Assembly: GCA_949282305.1 (NCBI GenBank)
Contig: CASDPB010000060.1
Coordinates: 1-64,000 of the forward strand
Reading direction: 5' to 3'
DNA from: an uncultured Lentisphaeria bacterium
Lineage (GTDB): Bacteria > Verrucomicrobiota > Lentisphaeria > Victivallales > UBA1829
Length of the DNA stretch: 64,000 nt
Shown here: piece by piece, positions 251-10,239 of the stretch
How the letters are laid out: the number at the start of each line of letters is the position of its first letter
How positions within the stretch are numbered: position 1 is the first letter of the stretch
Program-made: the position numbers and the translations under genes
Notes under the pieces: generated by a model
What the model saw: the letters and a program-made list of their open reading frames with translations, nothing else
Database searches by the model: none
What the model was told of the DNA's origin: nothing

Positions 251-2578
251 TCATGGGAGACGTCCTGTCCTGCCTGCGTTTTTTTTCTCCTTCAGAATCA
301 GGCGGTCCATGCTCAGTGTTCTGCCTGACATTTTCGCCGATACAAACAGTTCATAGGACGTGCCCGGCTGTACCAGGCGGTAGAACTCGCATCGGATTCC
401 CGTCAGATCGGGAATATACAGATGCACGCGCCCGTTGTTGGGGAATGCAATGTCGCCCACCTTGAGCCAGTGATATTTTCCGTCGGGAGGAAGCACTTCC
501 GGATTCAGGGACAGCGCCGCCATTTGACCGCCGTCCATCCAGTTGTTCACAGCGATGTTTGCCGCTTCGGTGTCTTTCAAGGAGAGAGTCATTGCCTTGC
601 CGTGGAACGCATCCGGATCCCTGACCAGTTTTGCCCGCATTCCCTCCTGGAGAAAATGTCCTGCGTTCAGATCGATCACGTCGCCTGTGACGGTTCCGAT
701 TTCGGCGGGCAGTGTTCCGGCGACGGCATGGGCGGCAAAGCGCTGTTCGCATTTTTCCAGTTCCCGCAGGATTTCACTCCTGAACCCGTTGCTGTCAGTC
801 GGGAAATAATAGTCCAGCGATGCAAGTGTCTCCTTCCGGAATTCCTGCATCAGAGCCGTATGGTTGTAATGTTTTTCCGGATTGTCCAGATACTTCCACC
901 GCATCAGCAGACCGCCCAGCAGTGCCGGACGTTCCCGGCGGATGCGTTTCACCGTGTCGGTGTCCGTTCCCGCTTCCCGTTCCGCCTGGTCCAGCAGCCG
1001 GAATGCCGTCGCGAAGAAGCTGTCGTCGAGATATTCCCGGCGGCTGACGTCGACTCCCGCGATGCGCTGATCGTATTCATCCTGCCGTTTCTGCATATAG
1101 TCCAGCAGCTTGCGCATGGTTCCCGCCGCCTTTCCATAGTAGTTTTCCATGAACATTGCAATCACTTCTTCCGCATTCCTGTCGGGATCGTCCATTAGTT
1201 TGTACCCGAGATAGCGGGTCAGAGGGAAAAAGTTGTTCCAGTGCGGGTTTTCATATTCCGCAAACAGGAATGACACGTGATTGTCCCGGTAAAACTTCAG
1301 GTCTTTCGGGATGGCGTCAACGCGCACGTAAGGCTCGGGATACAGCGGATAGAGCGTCCAGTAATCCCAGCGGGCGATGTGGCCGGTATGCTGCGCCCAT
1401 TGCTTCAGCAGATCGCGGGTGGCAGTGTTGAGCGGGTGCTCCAGTGACCGCAGCGTATCGTAGGTGTAATACCCCGCGCCGAATTCTATGCCCACCTGTG
1501 CCAGATGAATGATGACATTGGGTTCCGCCTTTATGGTTCTGGGCGGTTTTTCGCTGTACTGATAAGCAAAGGTGCGGATGAGGATTTCCGGATATTCACG
1601 ATGAATTTCCCGGGCGATGTGGTTGATGAAGTCCAGCAGCGGCGCCGCGTAGGAACCTTCCCGTTCCGCGAGAGCCTTGCAGTCCGCACAGACACAATAT
1701 TGATTGTTGTCGTTCTGGCTGATGTCGTAAATCAGCGGTGCCGGATAGCCTTTTGCGGCGGCTTCCGCACGGTCGTTCCTGATGAATGTCCGCAGCTGGG
1801 CGAGAGTCCGCTCGCGTGCTTCCGGATTGCTCATGCAGATTTGTCCGGGGCCTACGCCTGAGGTCGGTATGATGGCTTCTCCCGCCTCGTTCCGGCTGAA
1901 CAGTTCTTTCCGGTCCTTGGGCCAGGAGGAACAATAATCAAAGAACGTATGATGGGGGCGCTGACCGCCGATCAGCCGTGCCATGCCGTTGTCCGCCTGT
2001 GAATAGCTGAATCCCTTGTTGTGTTCCTTGAAGCGCCCCGCCACCGGGAACCAGTCGAGACGGTCGAATATCCAGCGGTTGCCGAAGCACGGTTTCCGCC
2101 GCAGGTTCCATGTGCCGGCTGCAAGCGTCGGATTGGAGGGAACCACTTCCACTGTTTCATCAAGCCAGTGAACTCCGCACTGCCGTTCCAGATAATCATA
2201 TACCGCATAGAGAATGCCGCGCAGCTTTCCGCCGGTCAGAATGAGATTTCCGTCGGACATGCTCCGAATGATCCACTCCTCCTGATCCAGCGATTTGTAA
2301 TCCACTCCGTTGCTGCGTGCATAGACAGTCTGTCCCACGTATGCCGCTTTCTGTCCCGCGGGCACCTGGTTTTCAGACATGACAGTGAAATCGCAGCCTG
2401 TGATTTTTTTGAGATATTGCGCCAGTTCCGCTGCCGCCTTCCGTTCCGCGGGCAGCGGTTCGGCTGGAACGGCAATGACATAATCCGCTTTGCCGTCGCG
2501 GAGCCAGAGGGGACCTGCCGCTGCTGTGAACATTCCGGCGCAGAGCATCAGAATCTGACATAAGTATTTCATTTTCAT
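251..2578 (-). CDS. Exported DUF4838 glycosidase-like protein
   Basis: A 775-residue secreted protein. A signal peptide spans about residues 1-22 (hydrophobic stretch ending AAAG). An N-terminal domain resembles the alpha/beta domain that precedes alpha-glucuronidase and GH20 barrels (AERKAAAELAQYLKKITG). The DUF4838 core follows, with CVCADC and the conserved SQNDNNQ region. The family is linked to polysaccharide breakdown, but its chemistry is not settled. I chose the ATG at 2578 because AGGAG lies 8 bases upstream. A longer reading from 2599 would overlap the upstream pseudopilin gene, which ends 14 bases before the chosen start. It is last in a regulator - pseudopilin - enzyme operon, so its substrate is probably the sugar sensed by the GntR-type regulator. 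Domain assignment is firm; substrate is unknown. Confidence 0.85.
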   Translation of the reverse strand: MKMKYLCQILMLCAGMFTAAAGPLWLRDGKADYVIAVPAEPLPAERKAAAELAQYLKKITGCDFTVMSENQVPAGQKAAYVGQTVYARSNGVDYKSLDQEEWIIRSMSDGNLILTGGKLRGILYAVYDYLERQCGVHWLDETVEVVPSNPTLAAGTWNLRRKPCFGNRWIFDRLDWFPVAGRFKEHNKGFSYSQADNGMARLIGGQRPHHTFFDYCSSWPKDRKELFSRNEAGEAIIPTSGVGPGQICMSNPEARERTLAQLRTFIRNDRAEAAAKGYPAPLIYDISQNDNNQYCVCADCKALAEREGSYAAPLLDFINHIAREIHREYPEILIRTFAYQYSEKPPRTIKAEPNVIIHLAQVGIEFGAGYYTYDTLRSLEHPLNTATRDLLKQWAQHTGHIARWDYWTLYPLYPEPYVRVDAIPKDLKFYRDNHVSFLFAEYENPHWNNFFPLTRYLGYKLMDDPDRNAEEVIAMFMENYYGKAAGTMRKLLDYMQKRQDEYDQRIAGVDVSRREYLDDSFFATAFRLLDQAEREAGTDTDTVKRIRRERPALLGGLLMRWKYLDNPEKHYNHTALMQEFRKETLASLDYYFPTDSNGFRSEILRELEKCEQRFAAHAVAGTLPAEIGTVTGDVIDLNAGHFLQEGMRAKLVRDPDAFHGKAMTLSLKDTEAANIAVNNWMDGGQMAALSLNPEVLPPDGKYHWLKVGDIAFPNNGRVHLYIPDLTGIRCEFYRLVQPGTSYELFVSAKMSGRTLSMDRLILKEKKNAGRTGRLP

Positions 2579-2592
2579 AAACATTTCTCCTG

Positions 2593-3291
2593 TTACCAAA
2601 ACAATTTAGATGAATATTTCTTTGGAAAGCCGCTGGCTGTGAAATCGTCAATATCTGCCTGTAATATCTGTGTCGTGACCGGCGCACTGTGTCCATCAAG
2701 CCATGCGGCGTTTGCCTTTCTGTTGTGAATGGTGCGGATGGTGTAGAAACTGATGTTGGGGATTACGGTCTTCAGCGTCGGGTTGTCATTGGCGTTGGCA
2801 TGTACATAATAACTGTTGTCCACATCAAGGTCGGAAGCGCCGTCGGCAAAGACCAGCTGATCGCCGGGGCTGTGCGCCAGAGTTGTCACTTTATGCGGCG
2901 ACAGGGCGCCTGTCCAGACAACTTGCAGTGAGTTCATTGCATAGGTATTGGGAATGAGGGCATTGCCGACTTTCGTCATTACCGGGCATACGTAGCTGCG
3001 CTTGTTTTCGCCGTTTGAGTATGACGTGTTGCTCAGGTAGTCTTCCATCAGAAAGAACCATTGCCGTTTGACTCCGTCCGCACAGGTTCCGTAATAAGTC
3101 ATTGTATAGTCGTTATTGTCACTGATGTACATGGAATGGAACAGTCCCAGCTGCTTCAACTGATTGGTGCAGTAAATGGATTGCGCGCTTCCACGTGCTT
3201 TGCTCAAGGCAGGAAGCAGCATCGCGGCAAGGATTGCAATAATTGCAACAACGACAAGAAGTTCTATCAAGGTGAACAACTTCCTCATCAA
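2593..3291 (-). CDS. Prepilin-like H-X9-DG protein (pseudopilin)
   Basis: A 232-residue type II secretion/type IV pilin-like protein. The N-terminus is the prepilin helix FTLIELLVV with the +5 Glu (E9) after a four-residue leader. The usual -1 Gly is replaced by Leu. The C-terminal half carries H-X9-DG ([12 protein letters not shown]), the processing-associated motif typical of the large Planctomycetes/Lentisphaerae pseudopilin family. A strong AGGAGG site lies 7 bases before the ATG. The gene sits 71 bases after the GntR-type regulator and 14 bases before the exported DUF4838 enzyme. It probably stays in the inner membrane by its N-terminal helix with a periplasmic C-terminal domain. Its role is unknown; adaptor or scaffold for the neighbouring enzyme is inference. 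Confidence 0.9.
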
Positions 3292-3362: not shown

Positions 3363-4463
3363 TCACTTGCGCGCTCCTGTATGACCATGCCGTGCGAAGA
3401 AATCTTTCCTTCCGGAAACCTGTTTAATTGGTTCAATAAGCTCAACGCCAAACGGCGGCGTCTCGCCTTTCATGTAATTCTGAATATTGGCAAATACACG
3501 CCGGATCTGCCTGCCGACGGGATTCACATACTTGATGACAGGCACGGAAAACTGAGCCGCATCGCATCCCAGGTTTGCATGGCTGGCAATAATCAGGTCT
3601 TCCGGGATCCGCATTCCCCGGGAGAACGCAGCCTGAATCATTCCGAATGTCATCAGGGAATCGCTGCTGATGACACCCAGCGGACGGGCGTCGCAGTGCT
3701 CCCATAGTTCTGTCAGTGCATCAAAGCCACCCTGCTGGGAGACCGGGACCCGTTTGTACAACGCCTGATCGTGCAGTTTTCCAATTCGTTTCAATCCGTC
3801 AAAATATCCGCGTCTGGTCATGTCCGGCGTGCTTGACCAGTCCATGGAAACATCCATATCGAACAATGCGATCTTCCGGCAGCCGAGCCGGTTCAGTTCC
3901 AGAACGGCGTCGTGTGCCATGCGGTAGGTGTTGAAGATCAGCGAATAGCTCAGTTCCTTGTAATTGTAGATTCCGATTGTGTAGACCATCCGGTCGCGGA
4001 AAAGCGTATCGTAGTTCCGGGCGATGTACAGGCTGCCGATGAAAACCGCGTCAAACTCGTTCTGCGCCAGCTTCACCAGAAAGGAACGCGCCGAATTTCC
4101 ATCCACCACATTGGGGAACAGCTCATACGACCAGTTCAGATCCATGCACTGCTGGTCAATCTCTTTCAGGATGATGTGCAGGGAGGAGTATGCCGAAGTG
4201 CTGTAAGCGAAAACCCGGTCAAGAACAATGGCGATCCGGCAGCTTTTTTTCTCGCAGACGAAAATTCCTCTGCCTGCGATCCGCTGCACGAGCCCATACT
4301 GTTCCAGAAATTCCATTGCCCTGCTGACCGTTGCCACAGTGGTTTTATAGCGTTCCGCCAGTTTGACAATGGGTTCCAGCTGTTCTCCCGGATGCAAGGC
4401 GCCCGAGGCAATTTGTATTTTCAATACCTCTGACAGCTCACGACTTTTGCTTTTCGGTGCCAT
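3363..4463 (-). CDS. GntR-type HTH / LacI-type sensor regulator
   Basis: A 366-residue transcription factor combining a GntR winged helix (about residues 5-75; LAERYKTTVATVSRAMEFLE) with a LacI-type periplasmic-binding-protein sensor domain (about 80-350), as in AraR. It is cytoplasmic and probably senses a sugar released by the downstream enzyme. I chose the ATG at 4463: the upstream ATG at 4514 falls inside the -10 box of a perfect promoter and would not be in the transcript. GGGAG lies 10 bases before the chosen start. It heads a minus-strand operon with the pseudopilin and DUF4838 genes. A near-palindrome over the promoter suggests autoregulation. Ligand unknown. Confidence 0.85.
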   Translation of the reverse strand: MAPKSKSRELSEVLKIQIASGALHPGEQLEPIVKLAERYKTTVATVSRAMEFLEQYGLVQRIAGRGIFVCEKKSCRIAIVLDRVFAYSTSAYSSLHIILKEIDQQCMDLNWSYELFPNVVDGNSARSFLVKLAQNEFDAVFIGSLYIARNYDTLFRDRMVYTIGIYNYKELSYSLIFNTYRMAHDAVLELNRLGCRKIALFDMDVSMDWSSTPDMTRRGYFDGLKRIGKLHDQALYKRVPVSQQGGFDALTELWEHCDARPLGVISSDSLMTFGMIQAAFSRGMRIPEDLIIASHANLGCDAAQFSVPVIKYVNPVGRQIRRVFANIQNYMKGETPPFGVELIEPIKQVSGRKDFFARHGHTGARK

Positions 4464-4490
4464 ATCGCGCCGACTCCCGGTTTGATTTTC

Positions 4491-4504
4491 GCATTCTAGA
4501 ATTC
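4491..4504. promoter_or_regulatory. Candidate operator of the GntR-type regulator
   Basis: GCATTCTAGAATTC is an almost perfect palindrome (core ATTCTAGAAT) just downstream of the -10 box. An inverted half-copy, TAGAATGC, lies at 4527-4534 between the -35 and -10 boxes. Placement at the promoter of the adjacent regulator makes autoregulation likely. This is inference; no footprint data exist. Confidence 0.5.
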
Positions 4505-4513
4505 TCTGTTTCA

Positions 4514-4542
4514 ATTATAATCTATTTAGAATGCAATGTCAA
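4514..4542 (-). promoter_or_regulatory. Consensus sigma-70 promoter of the GntR operon
   Basis: On the minus strand TTGACA (4537-4542) and TATAAT (4514-4519) are separated by exactly 17 bases. Both boxes match consensus at all six positions. Transcription would start near 4507 and read the regulator - pseudopilin - DUF4838 operon. Such a strong promoter suggests tight repression by an overlapping operator. Confidence 0.85.
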
Positions 4543-4662: not shown

Positions 4663-5589
4663 TTAAAATTTTCGCTTTGCGGCATGCAGTTTGCGGTATG
4701 CCGCGGGAGAAAGCCCGTAATGCCGTCTGAACAAGTCATAAAAACGGCTGAGGCTTTTAATGTTCAAATGATCCGCAATCTGTATGATGTCCTCTTTGGT
4801 GTCGATCAGCAGACGTGCGGCATGGCTGATCCGCAGTTCATTGACGAAGTCAGTCGGAGTTTTCCCGAGATATTTCTGAAAGCATTTGCACAAATGTCCG
4901 GGTGTGCGGCATGCCAGCTTCTGCATGCGTTCCACTCCGGCGCAGAAGTTTTCCTCCTTGCGCATCAGGGTGCAGAGTTTCACCAGCCAGTCGGGCACCT
5001 GCGCCTCGCTCAGCAGGTTCACTTCATCAATAAAGAAACGGGAATACAGTTCCCCGAGCAGTATTTTCAGTTTGATTTTCCTTAACAGCGGGGGAATTGC
5101 GGGCGAATTGAGTTTCAGCAGACGGGAATAAAGCCGGCTGGTTTCGGCGGGGTCCAGGGAGAACTGCGGCGGCAGAACGGGAGCGGTCAGCTGCTGCAGG
5201 AAAGAGTCGTTTTCCAGGTAAATGCTCAGACTCAGAAACAGTTCCAGGTCAAAATCAATCAGCAGGACTTCCGTCTGATTGAAGTCGTCGTCCGGCAGAA
5301 AGCAGTGTATGTCGTCCGGACGCAGAAAAATGAGATTGCCTGCACGGATTTTCTGCCGTTCGCCATTGATTTTATGGCACAACCCGCCGGAATTGATAAA
5401 AATAATTTCAGCGAAATCATGACAGTGCGGCAGGGTTCCCGACAAGGGAATCCGGTGGAAATAAAGATCTCCGCCGGTCTGTATGAAATGGAAATTTTTT
5501 TCTTCCGTCCAAGTGATTTCATGACAGCTGACGCGCCCTTTCAAGATGGGATCCAGCCAGCCTTCGCTTTTCTGCCGTGATAAATCCAC
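4663..5589 (-). CDS. AraC family transcriptional regulator
   Basis: A 308-residue cupin-AraC regulator. The N-terminal cupin-like sensor (about residues 45-130) carries LPHCHDFAEIIFI and the pattern RAGNLIFLRPDDIHCF. The C-terminal pair of helix-turn-helix motifs ends in RFYDLFRRHYGLSPAAYRKL. The start is uncertain. The longest frame begins at a TTG at 5655 (330 residues). The GTG at 5587-5589 is preferred because GGGAG lies about 10 bases upstream. It is divergent from the corrinoid methyl-transfer operon at 5894, so it probably controls that operon and senses a methylated substrate or sugar. Family assignment is firm; target and ligand are inferred. Confidence 0.85.
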   Translation of the reverse strand: MDLSRQKSEGWLDPILKGRVSCHEITWTEEKNFHFIQTGGDLYFHRIPLSGTLPHCHDFAEIIFINSGGLCHKINGERQKIRAGNLIFLRPDDIHCFLPDDDFNQTEVLLIDFDLELFLSLSIYLENDSFLQQLTAPVLPPQFSLDPAETSRLYSRLLKLNSPAIPPLLRKIKLKILLGELYSRFFIDEVNLLSEAQVPDWLVKLCTLMRKEENFCAGVERMQKLACRTPGHLCKCFQKYLGKTPTDFVNELRISHAARLLIDTKEDIIQIADHLNIKSLSRFYDLFRRHYGLSPAAYRKLHAAKRKF

Positions 5590-5893
5590 TCCTGCATTTC
5601 TCCCTTGTTTCCACGGATACGGCGATGATCGGTCGATAATGATAATGTAGAGCAATAAATAGAAAATAGCAAGGAAGATTTTAGTAAAAAAACGGATATA
5701 ATTAAAGAAAGAACATCTATGGCGTGAATCCTCTGGAAATTCATTTCAATGAGGGTTGCGGCATGATTTTCTGCCGTGGCAGTGCAGGGGGTGACTCCGC
5801 CGGATGAGCTGTGAATTACGGCGGCTGCCGGAAAAAAGTTTTCGTCCTGATGGATGCAGTAAGATGACGTTGCAATGCAAATAAGGAGGAAGA
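5590..5893 (+). promoter_or_regulatory. Divergent intergenic region with structured operon leader
   Basis: This 304-base spacer holds a TATAAT at 5697-5702 reading toward the corrinoid operon, but no clear -35 box at normal spacing. Downstream are two hairpins. The first pairs CGGCA (5759-5763) with TGCCG (5772-5776). The second is bipartite: GGCAG (5778-5782) and CCGCCG (5797-5802) pair with CGGCGG (5819-5824) and CTGCC (5825-5829), leaving a 14-base internal bulge and a 16-base loop. AGGAGG lies 4 bases before the ATG at 5894. I cannot match the structure to a known riboswitch; it lacks the cobalamin B12-box. Candidate cis-regulatory RNA. Confidence 0.5.
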
Positions 5894-6907
5894 ATGTTGT
5901 TTCAGAAGTTGGACTTTATCAATGAAGTGCTCGAAAGCCCGAAAAGAAAAGTGCTTCCGATCATGACTTCTCCCGGCATGGAACTGCTCGGCGTGCCGCC
6001 GCGCAGTGTGTTCCAGGATGGAGAGCTTCAATTCAAGTGTATTCAGGCTCTTGCCGCCGAGGCGCCAGTGGATGCCCAGGTGACGTTTATGGATCTTTCC
6101 GTCGAGGCGGAGGCGTTCGGCGCGCCGATTGCGTTTTCCGATTATGAAAATCCGACTGTGACCGAGCCGATAGCCGGTACGGAGGAGGCGGTCCGCAATC
6201 TGAAAATGCCGGCGGTCGGGGACAAGCGCACAGGGGAGGTTCTCCGATGCGCAAAGCTGTGCGCGGAGCGTCTGGAGCGTCCCACATTCGGAGGGCTGAT
6301 CGGTCCGTATTCTCTTGCCGGACGTCTTGCCGGCATGACGGAGATGATGATCCTGACGGCGGCGGAACCGGAAACGGCACATGCGCTGCTGCGCAAGGCG
6401 ACGGATTTTTTGAAATGCTACATTCAGGCATTCAAGGCTGCCGGCGTTGCCGGTGTGGTAATCGCGGAACCGGCAGCCGGTCTTCTGTCTCCGGACATGT
6501 GCCAGGAATTTGCCGCGGATTATCTGAAAGAGGTGGTCGCCTCGGTGAAGTCTGATTCCTTCATGGTGATTTTGCATAACTGCGGCAATACGGAAAAACA
6601 GATTCCCGCTCTTCTCTCGACCGGCGCGGACGCCCTTCACATCGGAAATGCGGCTGATATTCTTGCCGTGCTGCCGCAAATGCCGGAAAATGTTCTGCTG
6701 ATGGGAAATCTTGATCCGGTGAATGTGTTCAAAACGATGACGGAGGAACAGGTTTACGCCACGACCATGGAACTGCTGGAGCGGACTGCCGCCTTCCGGA
6801 ATTATGTTCTTTCCAGCGGCTGTGACCTGCCGCCGGCGGTTCCGATGAAAAATATTCTTGCATTTTTAAAAGCTTTGCAAAATTACAATCAAAAAACAGG
6901 GGTATGA
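5894..6907 (+). CDS. UroD/MtaA-family corrinoid methyltransferase
   Basis: A 337-residue cytoplasmic protein of the uroporphyrinogen decarboxylase superfamily, in the methyltransferase branch (MtaA/MtbA/CmuA-like). It shows the zinc-site pattern of that branch: H228-x-C230 in HNCGN, and C310 in SSGCDLPP. These residues activate a thiol methyl acceptor or related substrate in studied homologues. True UroD would lack this site. It is followed 4 bases later by a corrinoid protein, an iron-sulfur/ASKHA activator and DUF1638, so it takes or gives a methyl group through the corrinoid protein. Donor and acceptor cannot be read from the sequence. No separate MttB/MtaB-type substrate methyltransferase is encoded nearby, so it may be the substrate enzyme itself. 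Confidence 0.85.
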   Translation: MLFQKLDFINEVLESPKRKVLPIMTSPGMELLGVPPRSVFQDGELQFKCIQALAAEAPVDAQVTFMDLSVEAEAFGAPIAFSDYENPTVTEPIAGTEEAVRNLKMPAVGDKRTGEVLRCAKLCAERLERPTFGGLIGPYSLAGRLAGMTEMMILTAAEPETAHALLRKATDFLKCYIQAFKAAGVAGVVIAEPAAGLLSPDMCQEFAADYLKEVVASVKSDSFMVILHNCGNTEKQIPALLSTGADALHIGNAADILAVLPQMPENVLLMGNLDPVNVFKTMTEEQVYATTMELLERTAAFRNYVLSSGCDLPPAVPMKNILAFLKALQNYNQKTGV

Positions 6908-6911
6908 CAAA

Positions 6912-7535
6912 ATGACTGATTTTGAAGCGCTGAAAGCTGCCGTGATCAAAGGAAAACGCAATGATGTCACGGCGATTGTCCAGGAGGCAATCAACAACAA
7001 GGAAAATATCAATGACATCCTGGACAAAGGCATGATCCCGGCGATGCGCGAGATCGGAGACCGGTTCAGCCGCAATGAGGCTTATGTCCCGGAACTGCTG
7101 ATTGCCGCGCGTGCCATGCAGTCCGGACTGGCTTTGATTGAGCCGCTGCTTGCCGCTTCCGGCCGGAAATCCATGGGCAAGATCGCGATCGGGACAGTGA
7201 AAGGGGATCTGCATGATATCGGCAAGAATCTGGTCGCGATCATGCTGAAGGGCGCAGGTTATGATGTGATTGATCTCGGCGTCAACTGCGATGTTGAAAA
7301 ATATGAACAGGGAATGCGGGACGGTGCGCAGATCATTGCCTGCAGCAGCCTGCTGACAACAACGATGCCCTATATGAAGGAGGTTGTCGAACATTTCAGG
7401 GGAAAAGGGGTGAAGGTCATTATCGGAGGAGCCCCCGTTACCCAGAGTTATGCGGATGAGATCGGCGCGGACGGCTACAGCGAAGACGCCAACGGGGCGG
7501 TCCGGCTGGTCGATTCACTTCTGAAAGCCTGCTGA
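6912..7535 (+). CDS. Methyltransferase corrinoid protein
   Basis: A 207-residue cobalamin-binding protein of the MtaC/MtbC/MttC type. An N-terminal helical cap domain spans about residues 1-85. The Rossmann-like B12 domain carries D99-x-H101-x-x-G104 (GDLHDIGKN), where H101 is the expected lower axial ligand to cobalt. Length matches the family (about 210). It shuttles a methyl group between the UroD-like methyltransferase and its partner, cycling Co(I)/methyl-Co(III). It lies 4 bases after the methyltransferase gene and 10 bases before the activator. Confidence 0.92.
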   Translation: MTDFEALKAAVIKGKRNDVTAIVQEAINNKENINDILDKGMIPAMREIGDRFSRNEAYVPELLIAARAMQSGLALIEPLLAASGRKSMGKIAIGTVKGDLHDIGKNLVAIMLKGAGYDVIDLGVNCDVEKYEQGMRDGAQIIACSSLLTTTMPYMKEVVEHFRGKGVKVIIGGAPVTQSYADEIGADGYSEDANGAVRLVDSLLKAC

Positions 7536-7545
7536 ATCATTTCTC

Positions 7546-8922
7546 ATGCGCATTACTGTAACATCGAAAGAGAATCTTGCGAAAGTTCTTGAGGAAAACG
7601 GATATGCTTCGGAACTGCGCTGCGGCGGGCAGGGAACCTGCGGGCGCTGCGCGGTTCAGCTGCTTTCCGGGGTCTGGCAGGTGGAAGACAGAGTTGTCCA
7701 GGCACCTGTCCGGGCCCTCAGCTGCCGTTCTTCTCTGCTGAGCGATTCCGGTGAAGTTGAATTTGAACCGGCTCCCCGTGCGGGGAATATTGTCATGGAC
7801 TGGAATCTTATGCCGTTGCCGGTGCGGCCGGAAACTGTGATCGGAGTTGATATCGGCACCACGACTGTTGCCGCCGTCAAGATCAGTCGTGGGCAGGTTG
7901 TTTCCAGAGCCAGCTGTTTCAATGCGCAGAACCGTTATGGCGACAACGTTGTCACCAGGATCAGTCAGTCCGCAGCGAATTTAAGCGGATTGCAGGCGGC
8001 AGTTCATGAATCCGTCCGGAATGTGCTCGACGAGCTGGAATTGGAACATACTGCGAGGATTGCCATTGCGGGAAACACTGTGATGACATGTCTGTTCCAT
8101 GGAATTGATCCGTCTTCCATCGGCGTGATGCCGTTTGCTCCGCCGCGGCGTCTTTTTCCCGTTTCCGCATGGAAGGGCATCCCGTTGCTGACGATGCCGT
8201 GCATTGCCGGTTACGTCGGGGGGGATTTGACCGCCGGTCTGTCTGCCGTATCGCTGCGGACCGGTGAAATGCTGGTGGACATCGGGACAAACTGTGAGAT
8301 CATTTTCAACACGGATCAGGGGATGTTCTGCACGGCGGCGGCTGCCGGGCCCGCGTTTGAAGGCGCCGGATTGCATTTCGGCTGTCGGGCGGTGACCGGC
8401 GCGATTGATCATTACAGCGGTTCTTCGGATTATTCCGTAATCGGCGGCGGAAAAGTGCTCGGCTTCTGCGGTTCCGGCTACATTGATTTTCTGGCAGTGG
8501 AGCGCCGCAGGGGGCATCTGAATGAGTTCGGACGGTACGAGCCGCCCGCGGAGCAGATGCCGGTTGCCGACGGCGTCTTCGTCCATGAGTATGACATTGA
8601 GCAGCTGTTGAAGGCGAAAGCCGCGGTATGGGCGGGGATCAAAACGTTGGAAGACCATTGCGCACAGCAGGCGCATACCATTTATCTTGCCGGAGGTTTT
8701 ACACAACATCTGAACATTGAAAATGCCGTTGCGATCGGCATGCTGCCGGAACGGAACTACAAGACGGTCGGGAATGCCAGCTTGTACGGCGCGGCGTCTC
8801 TGGCGGCTGCACCCGAAACGCTGCCGGAGCTGGAACGTTTGATTGATCTGCCCCGGGAAATCCCGCTGAATGTGCTCCCGGAATTTGAAGACAACTTTAT
8901 TGACGGACTGCTTTTGCCATGA
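7546..8922 (+). CDS. Short 2Fe-2S/ASKHA corrinoid reductive activator
   Basis: A 458-residue RACo-like protein. The N-terminus is a plant-type [2Fe-2S] ferredoxin domain with cysteines C26, C32, C35 and C60 (C-x5-C-x2-C...C). The rest is a DUF4445 ASKHA ATPase domain beginning with VIGVDIGTTTVAAVKI near residue 102. The family uses ATP to reduce inactive Co(II) corrinoid back to Co(I). It is shorter than the roughly 530-630 residues I expect for RamA or CoFeSP-type RACo: the linker/middle region between ferredoxin and ASKHA is almost absent. It follows the corrinoid protein by 10 bases and overlaps the next gene by ATGA. The partner is almost certainly the adjacent corrinoid protein. Confidence 0.88.
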   Translation: MRITVTSKENLAKVLEENGYASELRCGGQGTCGRCAVQLLSGVWQVEDRVVQAPVRALSCRSSLLSDSGEVEFEPAPRAGNIVMDWNLMPLPVRPETVIGVDIGTTTVAAVKISRGQVVSRASCFNAQNRYGDNVVTRISQSAANLSGLQAAVHESVRNVLDELELEHTARIAIAGNTVMTCLFHGIDPSSIGVMPFAPPRRLFPVSAWKGIPLLTMPCIAGYVGGDLTAGLSAVSLRTGEMLVDIGTNCEIIFNTDQGMFCTAAAAGPAFEGAGLHFGCRAVTGAIDHYSGSSDYSVIGGGKVLGFCGSGYIDFLAVERRRGHLNEFGRYEPPAEQMPVADGVFVHEYDIEQLLKAKAAVWAGIKTLEDHCAQQAHTIYLAGGFTQHLNIENAVAIGMLPERNYKTVGNASLYGAASLAAAPETLPELERLIDLPREIPLNVLPEFEDNFIDGLLLP

Positions 8923-9626
8923 AATTGAAACTGATTGCCTGTAAAGTGTTCAAGGCGGAACTGGATTTTCTGATTCCGGAGAGTCCGCACCAGCTGGAGA
9001 CGGAATATCTGGAGCTGGGGGAACATGCCAGACCGAAGGTGTTGCGTGAGAAACTTCAGCAGTGCATTGACGATTCCGTTCAGTATGATGCAGTTCTCCT
9101 GGGATACGGTCTGTGCGGCACTGCAACCGCCGGAATCACTGCCCGCAGTGTGCCGCTGATCCTCCCCCGCAGTCATGACTGCGGAGGAATTCTGCTCGGC
9201 AGCCGCAAACGTTTTGAAGATATTTTCAGAGCAATGCCCAGCACGCCGTTTTCTTCCATCGGTTTTGTGGAGTCGGGCGATTACTATTTCTCGGACGGAG
9301 AGCTGGTACTGGGGGACAGCTACAGCAGACTGGTGGAGGAATACGGGGAAGACAATGCCCGTTATGTTTGGGATGCGATGCACCCCAAACTGGACGGAAA
9401 ACCTGTGCCGGTCTATTTTATTCATACTCTTCCTTCTCCGAATGCCGTGAAGCAATGCCGTGACAGAGCCGCTGCGGAAGATCGTGAATTCCGTGAACTG
9501 GAAGGGGATCTGCGTCTGCTCCGCATGCTGATTTGCGGGGAATGGCCTTCGGATGAATTTCTGACTGTCCCGCCGGGAAAGACAATCCGGCAGGCGGGCG
9601 ACTGGAACTTGATTGTAACAACGTGA
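8919..9626 (+). CDS. DUF1638 protein of corrinoid operon
   Basis: A 235-residue DUF1638 protein. Conserved features visible are an N-terminal IACKVFKAEL, the GYGLCG motif and the LPRSHDCGGILLG motif with His and Cys residues suited to metal or cofactor binding. DUF1638 genes recur beside methanogen and bacterial corrinoid methyltransferases, but no activity is established to my knowledge. The start overlaps the activator stop (ATGA), implying translational coupling. It may help corrinoid loading, repair or methyl transfer; this is inference from context. Confidence 0.85.
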   Translation: MKLKLIACKVFKAELDFLIPESPHQLETEYLELGEHARPKVLREKLQQCIDDSVQYDAVLLGYGLCGTATAGITARSVPLILPRSHDCGGILLGSRKRFEDIFRAMPSTPFSSIGFVESGDYYFSDGELVLGDSYSRLVEEYGEDNARYVWDAMHPKLDGKPVPVYFIHTLPSPNAVKQCRDRAAAEDREFRELEGDLRLLRMLICGEWPSDEFLTVPPGKTIRQAGDWNLIVTT

Positions 9627-9765: not shown

Positions 9766-10239
9766 ATGAATTCAGAATCGGAATGTTCAGAAAATTTGGA
9801 TGTCGTTCTGCTGGCAAAATGGCTAATTCTTCTTGCCGCCCGGCGGAACTGTCCCGTCACCAATTCCAGGTTGCAGGTTCTGCTTTATTACAGTCAGGTA
9901 TGGCATCTGGTGTTTTACCGGCGCAAGCTGTTTAACGAGCCGTTGGAAGCCTGGCTGCATGGTCCGGCAGTCTTTCAAGTTTACAAGCAGTTTGAGTCCG
10001 GAAGTTTTTTAAGACTGCCGTCTCAGTCTGATCTGCCTGAAATACCCTTGCGGATCCAGAAGCATCTGTGCGAAATTCTGGAAGTTTATCTGCCGTTTTC
10101 CACTGGTGATTTGGAGAAAATGGTCAGGAATGAGTTCCCCTGGCAGAATGCCCGCCGGGGATTGGCGGAACGGGAGACTTCACGAATGCCGATTGCTGTA
10201 AAGGACATTTTGAATTTTTATGGTTCAGGAGGGAAATAG
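9766..10239 (+). CDS. Panacea (DUF4065/SocA-like) domain protein
   Basis: A 157-residue protein dominated by the Panacea domain. Typical features are the repeated aromatic core LLYYSQVWHLVFYRRKLFNEPL and the AWLHGPAVFQVYKQF segment; the first is described only in part here. Panacea is the antitoxin or chaperone-like domain of many type II toxin-antitoxin pairs and of SocA. AGGAGG lies about 12 bases before the ATG. No toxin-like gene is adjacent: the next gene, LysR, converges with a 3-base gap, and 139 bases separate it from the corrinoid operon. It could be a solitary antitoxin, a regulator or a remnant of a toxin-antitoxin pair. Confidence 0.82.
   Translation: MNSESECSENLDVVLLAKWLILLAARRNCPVTNSRLQVLLYYSQVWHLVFYRRKLFNEPLEAWLHGPAVFQVYKQFESGSFLRLPSQSDLPEIPLRIQKHLCEILEVYLPFSTGDLEKMVRNEFPWQNARRGLAERETSRMPIAVKDILNFYGSGGK

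Follow-up and report, generated by a model that had tools for sequence, protein, structure and literature searches.

A four-gene corrinoid methyl-transfer operon centred on an MtaA-like UroD protein in an uncultured Lentisphaeria bacterium

A real four-gene operon for vitamin-B12 (corrinoid) methyl transfer lies at positions 5,894 to 9,626 of the 64,000-nucleotide stretch analysed here (positions 1 to 64,000 of contig CASDPB010000060.1, assembly GCA_949282305.1, from an uncultured Lentisphaeria bacterium; hereafter the window). Its genes, tightly packed on the plus strand, encode in order a UroD-like methyltransferase, a corrinoid protein, a corrinoid activase and a DUF1638 protein, with gaps of 4 bp and 10 bp followed by a 4-bp overlap according to the open reading frame (ORF) calls, and all of their Pfam matches are above cut-off (Table 1). 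A first-pass annotation made from the sequence alone had described the same packed set, and both the coordinates and the domains agree with it. We tentatively favour, with a little less than even confidence, the reading that this operon is the constant hub of UroD-based corrinoid methyl transfer, which would be fed by interchangeable UroD-type demethylases and from which the methyl group would end on a thiol.

The UroD protein of the operon carries H228, N229, C230 and C310, which are invariant in an alignment of 53 homologues (the HNC UroD). In the alignment to MtaA (PDB 4ay7), H228, C230 and C310 coincide with its H-I-C and GC residues, bearing out the zinc site proposed in the first-pass annotation. 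Its AlphaFold2 model (mean predicted local distance difference test score, pLDDT, of 96) is closest in fold to MtaA (4ay7/4ay8; TM 0.86-0.88), followed by uroporphyrinogen decarboxylases, with MetE more distant; MtaA is the best PDB match by profile as well as by fold. Against the curated MtaA, MtbA and mtaA_cmuA models the protein scores, respectively, 104.8, 116.6 and 134.4 bits, well below the cut-offs of 400, 600 and 235.4. In two trees the HNC proteins, the window enzyme among them, form one fully supported clade (100/99 in the second tree), separate from a group of MtaA and three UroDs encoded in one Acetoanaerobium cluster (support 99/96 and 99/91), whose gene content is that published for mlp clusters, and from the H-I-C group of UroDs (94/79). 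One of these groups (the HNC, the MtaA plus Acetoanaerobium or the H-I-C clade) also held, in the first, larger tree, a long-branched HNC row (L070). Placement inside a branch of known function, named in the first-pass annotation as counting against its interpretation, was not seen relative to the references of these trees, which are few, sit on long branches, and include one sequence of the soluble methylcobamide:CoM methyltransferases (SCMT, the MtaA/MtbA type) and none of OdmB, MtvB, CmuA or the published Mlp1-3. By sequence the window enzyme belongs to a branch of the MtaA-like family of methanogens that is uncharacterised, and it lies outside the characterised branches for the sequences tested.

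The host genome (4.36 Mb, 96% complete) holds no match to the MttB family (PF06253) or to the MtaB family (PF12176), so that the first-pass observation that no MtaB/MttB/MtgB-type enzyme accompanies the operon extends to the whole assembly. Its description of the operon as being without a substrate methyltransferase is nevertheless misleading, since MtvB, OdmB, VdmB, MtoB and CdmB, all of the UroD superfamily, act as the substrate enzymes in systems already described (PMC13222342). Ten UroD-superfamily matches were found in the genome, together with a single RACo-type activase and, besides MetH, a single cap-type corrinoid protein. Pterin-binding domains (PF00809) are confined to FolP and MetH, so a dedicated folate methyltransferase (MT-II) of the pterin-binding type is absent. 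The best UroD match of this genome scores 195 bits, as compared with at least 400 for HemE-like matches in some members of the class, and a canonical uroporphyrinogen decarboxylase (HemE) seems to be missing.

Among relatives from the class, HNC UroD and corrinoid protein are found together again, often with additional UroD paralogues from several classes alongside. Victivallis vadensis DSM 14823 is one species that has the cluster (L092). For example, an H-I-C UroD follows the corrinoid gene by a few bases at locus L047, an H-S-C and an H-I-C UroD lie between corrinoid protein and activase at L048, and at L053 (G097:C80, 1-8137) six extra UroD-like ORFs are present, such that one corrinoid protein stands amid seven same-strand UroD-like ORFs. 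Three copies resembling orthologues of such proteins are encoded in trans in the window genome, at identities of 51-62%: against the in-operon UroD of L047, those on contigs C113 and C36 show 62% and 52% identity, respectively, and the C131 protein shows 57-58% identity with UroDs inside the clusters of L061, L062 and L066. The partner enzyme of the operon is therefore likely a distant, trans-encoded UroD paralogue; a distant partner was one of two options that the first-pass annotation had offered. Past this core, no further conserved genes of note were found near the Lentisphaeria loci. The pairing of UroD and corrinoid protein is seen again in other genera and phyla and is thus not a matter of chance. 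Across 198 genomes of the class, an activase is present in 74 of the 81 with at least two UroD matches, versus 19 of the 117 others (Fisher p about 8e-28, a value that overstates independence as the genomes are related). UroD and activase matches are both absent from three congeners, which marks the corrinoid system as an accessory trait.

Extra UroDs outside the H-I-C class mostly have no third zinc cysteine, and for two of the divergent classes no PDB relative was found by sequence at E 0.01. The pattern E-X14-E-X20-H, which we take to be an O-demethylase zinc motif, was sought in the divergent UroDs and not upheld, with one stray match only (L073). Some class genomes are very rich in this superfamily, with 142, 114 and 92 first-look candidates in G018, G060 and G019, respectively, nearly all of unassigned function.

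Beyond the class, a contig scan turned up this UroD type in Bacteroidales, Clostridia, Smithellaceae and further groups, and in all of the best 80 loci, which were examined further, H-N-C and the third cysteine are kept. Several Bacteroides loci, that of B. salyersiae DSM 18765 among them, encode the corrinoid protein as a fusion with a divergent UroD-like domain. The Palleniella muris fusion runs from the divergent UroD-like domain through a homocysteine S-methyltransferase to the corrinoid protein, and a Prevotella protein aligns with it over the full length and keeps the GGCCGTT motif. The structural model of the divergent domain is mediocre (pLDDT 72) and its fold match to UroD weak, so that calling it UroD-like depends on a profile match. 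The three-domain proteins of Palleniella and Prevotella (Table 1) could possibly be a folate-free methionine synthase fed by a demethylase.

A scheme of the hub can be drawn as follows. The substrate demethylase (MT-I), a further paralogue from the UroD superfamily, would move the methyl group of the substrate onto the Co(I) form of the corrinoid protein; the HNC UroD, through its His-Cys-Cys zinc site, would pass it on to a thiol, perhaps homocysteine; and the activase, aided by the DUF1638 protein, would return Co(II) to Co(I). Since DUF1638 is genetically linked with RamA-like proteins and corrinoid methionine synthase (PMC5764234), the DUF1638 protein probably is, by analogy, a helper of corrinoid reactivation. 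In the window genome MT-I would be encoded in trans (candidates on C113, C36, C131 and other contigs), and in relatives it would lie within the operon or be fused to the corrinoid protein. The substrates favoured as most likely, though unproven, are O-methyl sugars or comparable polysaccharide-derived methyl ethers. The direction in which the methyl group moves, its thiol acceptor, the substrate and the role of the trans UroDs are all inferred.

This scheme draws on what can be read from the sequence (domains, zinc residues, gene order, cis and trans paralogues, fusions, and the absence of other MT-I and of folate MT-II families) and is preferred for several reasons. The HNC UroD is constant, whereas the other UroDs of the clusters vary in class and number; its zinc residues and fold resemble those of MtaA, and the extra UroDs, the H-I-C class excepted, are mostly devoid of the third zinc cysteine. 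Furthermore, the trans UroDs resemble in-operon UroDs of relatives, UroD-like and homocysteine S-methyltransferase domains are fused to the corrinoid protein in Bacteroidales, no folate MT-II exists outside MetH, and the activase tracks the presence of at least two UroD matches across the class. The proposal of O-methyl sugars as substrates leans on gene neighbourhoods: roughly a fifth of the 80 loci have genes of GH31, GH141 or sugar-transporter type, GH31-type and GH141-type glycoside hydrolase (GH) genes were each found in about 15 and an SSF transporter in 20, such genes stand near many of the Bacteroidales loci, and the trans UroDs of the window genome lie near GH39 plus CBM9, GH78, GH130 plus GH42, GH38 or Gfo/Idh/MocA genes. 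A sugar context was also observed on plasmid EAL2_808p of Peptoclostridium acidaminophilum (L088), where genes of a sugar ABC transporter and a DUF4091 protein immediately precede those of corrinoid protein and H-I-C UroD.

Several observations weigh against the hub. The strongest doubt comes from the HNC UroD being kept beside corrinoid proteins that already bear a homocysteine methyltransferase domain, which suggests that something other than homocysteine may be its acceptor. The full H-C-C set is also present in the H-I-C paralogues, and 7 of 24 clusters of the class, as well as 17 of 55 other clusters that encode a corrinoid protein, have no extra UroD within 7 kb. The counts of sugar genes are raw, not set against a genomic background, and such genes abound in Lentisphaeria. 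Finally, the operon has no operator in common with the trans UroD loci, as detailed below. It is also conceivable, though rather unlikely, that the HNC UroD itself serves as MT-I and takes the methyl group from an S-, Se- or O-methylated compound, with that group leaving the corrinoid protein via MetH, via a homocysteine-methyltransferase/MTHFR fusion encoded on contig C74 or via an H-I-C UroD. MT-I enzymes of the UroD superfamily are known (PMC13222342), the operon offers no other candidate in cis, and a homocysteine methyltransferase domain is joined to the corrinoid protein of some relatives and to MTHFR in this genome. Yet a His-Cys-Cys zinc site is typically found in S-methyltransferases directed at thiols (PMC10418091), and the HNC type is invariant where the other UroDs vary, the pattern to be expected if it is a shared enzyme on the acceptor side.

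Divergent from the operon is the gene of an AraC-family regulator with a cupin domain, the sensor noted in the first-pass annotation, and homologues of 44-70% identity stand beside the same UroD in relatives. Alignment of the AraC-UroD intergenic regions revealed a conserved 38-bp site, a candidate operator, which overlaps the TTG start of the called ORF, so that the true start of AraC may lie inside that ORF. The site in the window scores 48 versus a shuffled maximum of 13.8, a score inflated by the window site being among the seven of the matrix. It is the sole full match in the genome; two matches with three mismatches are close to what chance would give, the reversed control having yielded one. 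No such site was found at the trans UroD loci, and their co-regulation via this site was rejected. With a single full site in the genome, the regulator appears, by sequence, to be local, and the trans UroDs appear to be under other control. A substrate enzyme co-regulated elsewhere, which the first-pass annotation named as a second point that would count against its interpretation, is indicated by gene position in relatives, but no common operator was found in this genome. As to the small-molecule inducer suggested for the sensor, a methoxy-sugar would fit the gene neighbourhoods, though unproven, and nothing found points to aromatics. Taken together, the interpretation in the first-pass annotation is partly supported.

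Table 1. Features of the operon, its regulatory region and fusion proteins of relatives
Feature	Position	Strand	Evidence or source
UroD-superfamily (MtaA-like) methyltransferase, 337 aa	5894-6907	+	Pfam URO-D, 195.6 bits, above cut-off
Corrinoid protein, 207 aa, cap and B12-binding domains, GDLHDIG motif	6912-7535	+	Pfam B12-binding, B12-binding_2
Corrinoid activase of RACo/RamA type, 458 aa, 2Fe-2S domain at the N terminus	7546-8922	+	Pfam RACo_C_ter, Raco_middle, Fer2
DUF1638 protein, 235 aa	8919-9626	+	Pfam DUF1638, 80.1 bits
AraC-family regulator with cupin domain, divergent	4663..5655	-	Pfam HTH_18, HTH_AraC, AraC_binding
Conserved 38-bp site, GATAATRTAGAGCAA-N15-AAGGAAGA, candidate operator	5641..5678	+	Alignment of AraC-UroD intergenic regions
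Three-domain fusion proteins, about 950-985 aa, without pterin domain	L140:5013-7964, L146:5053-7941, L169:9629-12475		Palleniella, Prevotella

Around the operon, a DUF4838 protein with a weak GH67 N-terminal match (251-2599, minus strand) is encoded beside genes for a pseudopilin-like protein (2593-3291) and a regulator of GntR/LacI type (3363-4514). L064:3895-7021 shows a similar pairing of a pilin-like gene with a large protein, and a carbon-nitrogen hydrolase gene lies near both of the trans H-I-C UroD loci of this genome (L064:7084-8010 and L065:5266-6234). Downstream, at 9766-10239 on the plus strand, a SocA/Panacea-domain protein of an antitoxin-like family is encoded, for which an adjoining toxin was not identified.

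A wider proposal, which we consider unlikely though worth stating, is that anaerobic O-demethylation of sugars is widespread: interchangeable UroD-type sugar:corrinoid methyltransferases would share one corrinoid protein, the methyl group would reach a thiol via the H-C-C UroD or a fused homocysteine domain, and gut Bacteroidales, Clostridia and Lentisphaerota would gain both the sugar and a folate-free methyl group for methionine. Bacteroides enzymes that free 2-O-methyl fucose from rhamnogalacturonan II are known (PMC12282258), and no corrinoid or UroD enzyme that takes the methyl group off O-methyl sugars was found in the open-access literature searched. If the hub model is true, many UroD-like proteins of Lentisphaerota and gut Bacteroidales would gain a testable function, and the natural fusions of UroD-like, homocysteine methyltransferase and corrinoid domains make the acceptor question directly testable, partly in cultured strains.

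Coenzyme M is not expected as a methyl acceptor in this bacterium. With MtaA and MtbA of Methanosarcina, the window UroD has the UroD fold and the His-Cys-Cys zinc residues in common, yet its model scores and its clade set it apart. The MttB/MtgB and MtaB systems differ in relying on the two substrate methyltransferase families missing from this genome. The NCBIfam corrinoid models match the corrinoid protein below their own cut-offs.

The type 1 mlp gene clusters (MGCs) likewise combine an MtaA-like UroD, a corrinoid protein and a RamA-type activase without a folate methylase (PMC10418091). The operon could be a reduced version of these with the role put forward for type 1 MGCs, the salvage of methyl-sulfur or methyl-selenium compounds, a reading that we hold to be improbable. 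Component types and zinc ligands are identical, and ClMlp2 methylates selenide (PMC10418091). However, type 1 clusters need at least two Mlps; clusters of some relatives hold two or more UroDs, whereas the window operon has one UroD, which moreover groups apart from the Mlp-type references used (the three Acetoanaerobium UroDs) and from MtaA. Selenium machinery is present in 87% of MGC species (frequent, not strictly defining), and in the window genome no SelD was found above cut-off; no recurrent sulfur or selenium gene was seen near the loci of relatives. The text of Kountz and Balskus (PMC10418091) makes no mention of DUF1638, Lentisphaerota or Bacteroidota.

The split corrinoid methionine synthase of Phaeobacter inhibens shares with the window the set of corrinoid protein, RamA-like activase and DUF1638 (PMC5764234). 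A module for corrinoid methionine synthesis or corrinoid repair, in which HNC UroD and corrinoid protein make methionine and activase plus DUF1638 reactivate, is accordingly worth weighing, though it strikes us as slightly less credible again than a reduced mlp cluster. That set is the reactivation set of the split enzyme (PMC5764234), and a stand-alone methionine-synthase-activation-like protein accompanies the HNC UroD in 39 of the 80 loci. In contrast, the split enzyme has separate homocysteine and pterin proteins, neither of which is in the window operon; the genome keeps a full MetH (1235 aa, with corrinoid, PF02607, and pterin, PF00809, domains); the operon is absent from the three congeners; and no Rfam element was found at it.

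The hub that we favour has close counterparts in the OdmB, VdmB, MtvB, MtoB and CdmB systems, which, as here, combine a UroD-superfamily methyltransferase, a corrinoid protein and an activating enzyme (PMC13222342). Systems of the OdmB/MtvB/CdmB type use a folate MT-II, which the window genome does not have outside MetH, and CdmB matches the HNC profile weakly, over its C-terminal part. S-methyltransferases of the UroD superfamily retain His-Cys-Cys, whereas in O-demethylating UroDs the zinc ligands are altered or lost (PMC10418091, PMC13222342), to a carboxylate or altogether in the OdmB/MtvB/CdmB type; the window UroD has H-C-C, and the extra UroDs of relatives mostly do not. The operon is thus not a categorically new system; it is a variant of the known corrinoid methyl-transfer type.

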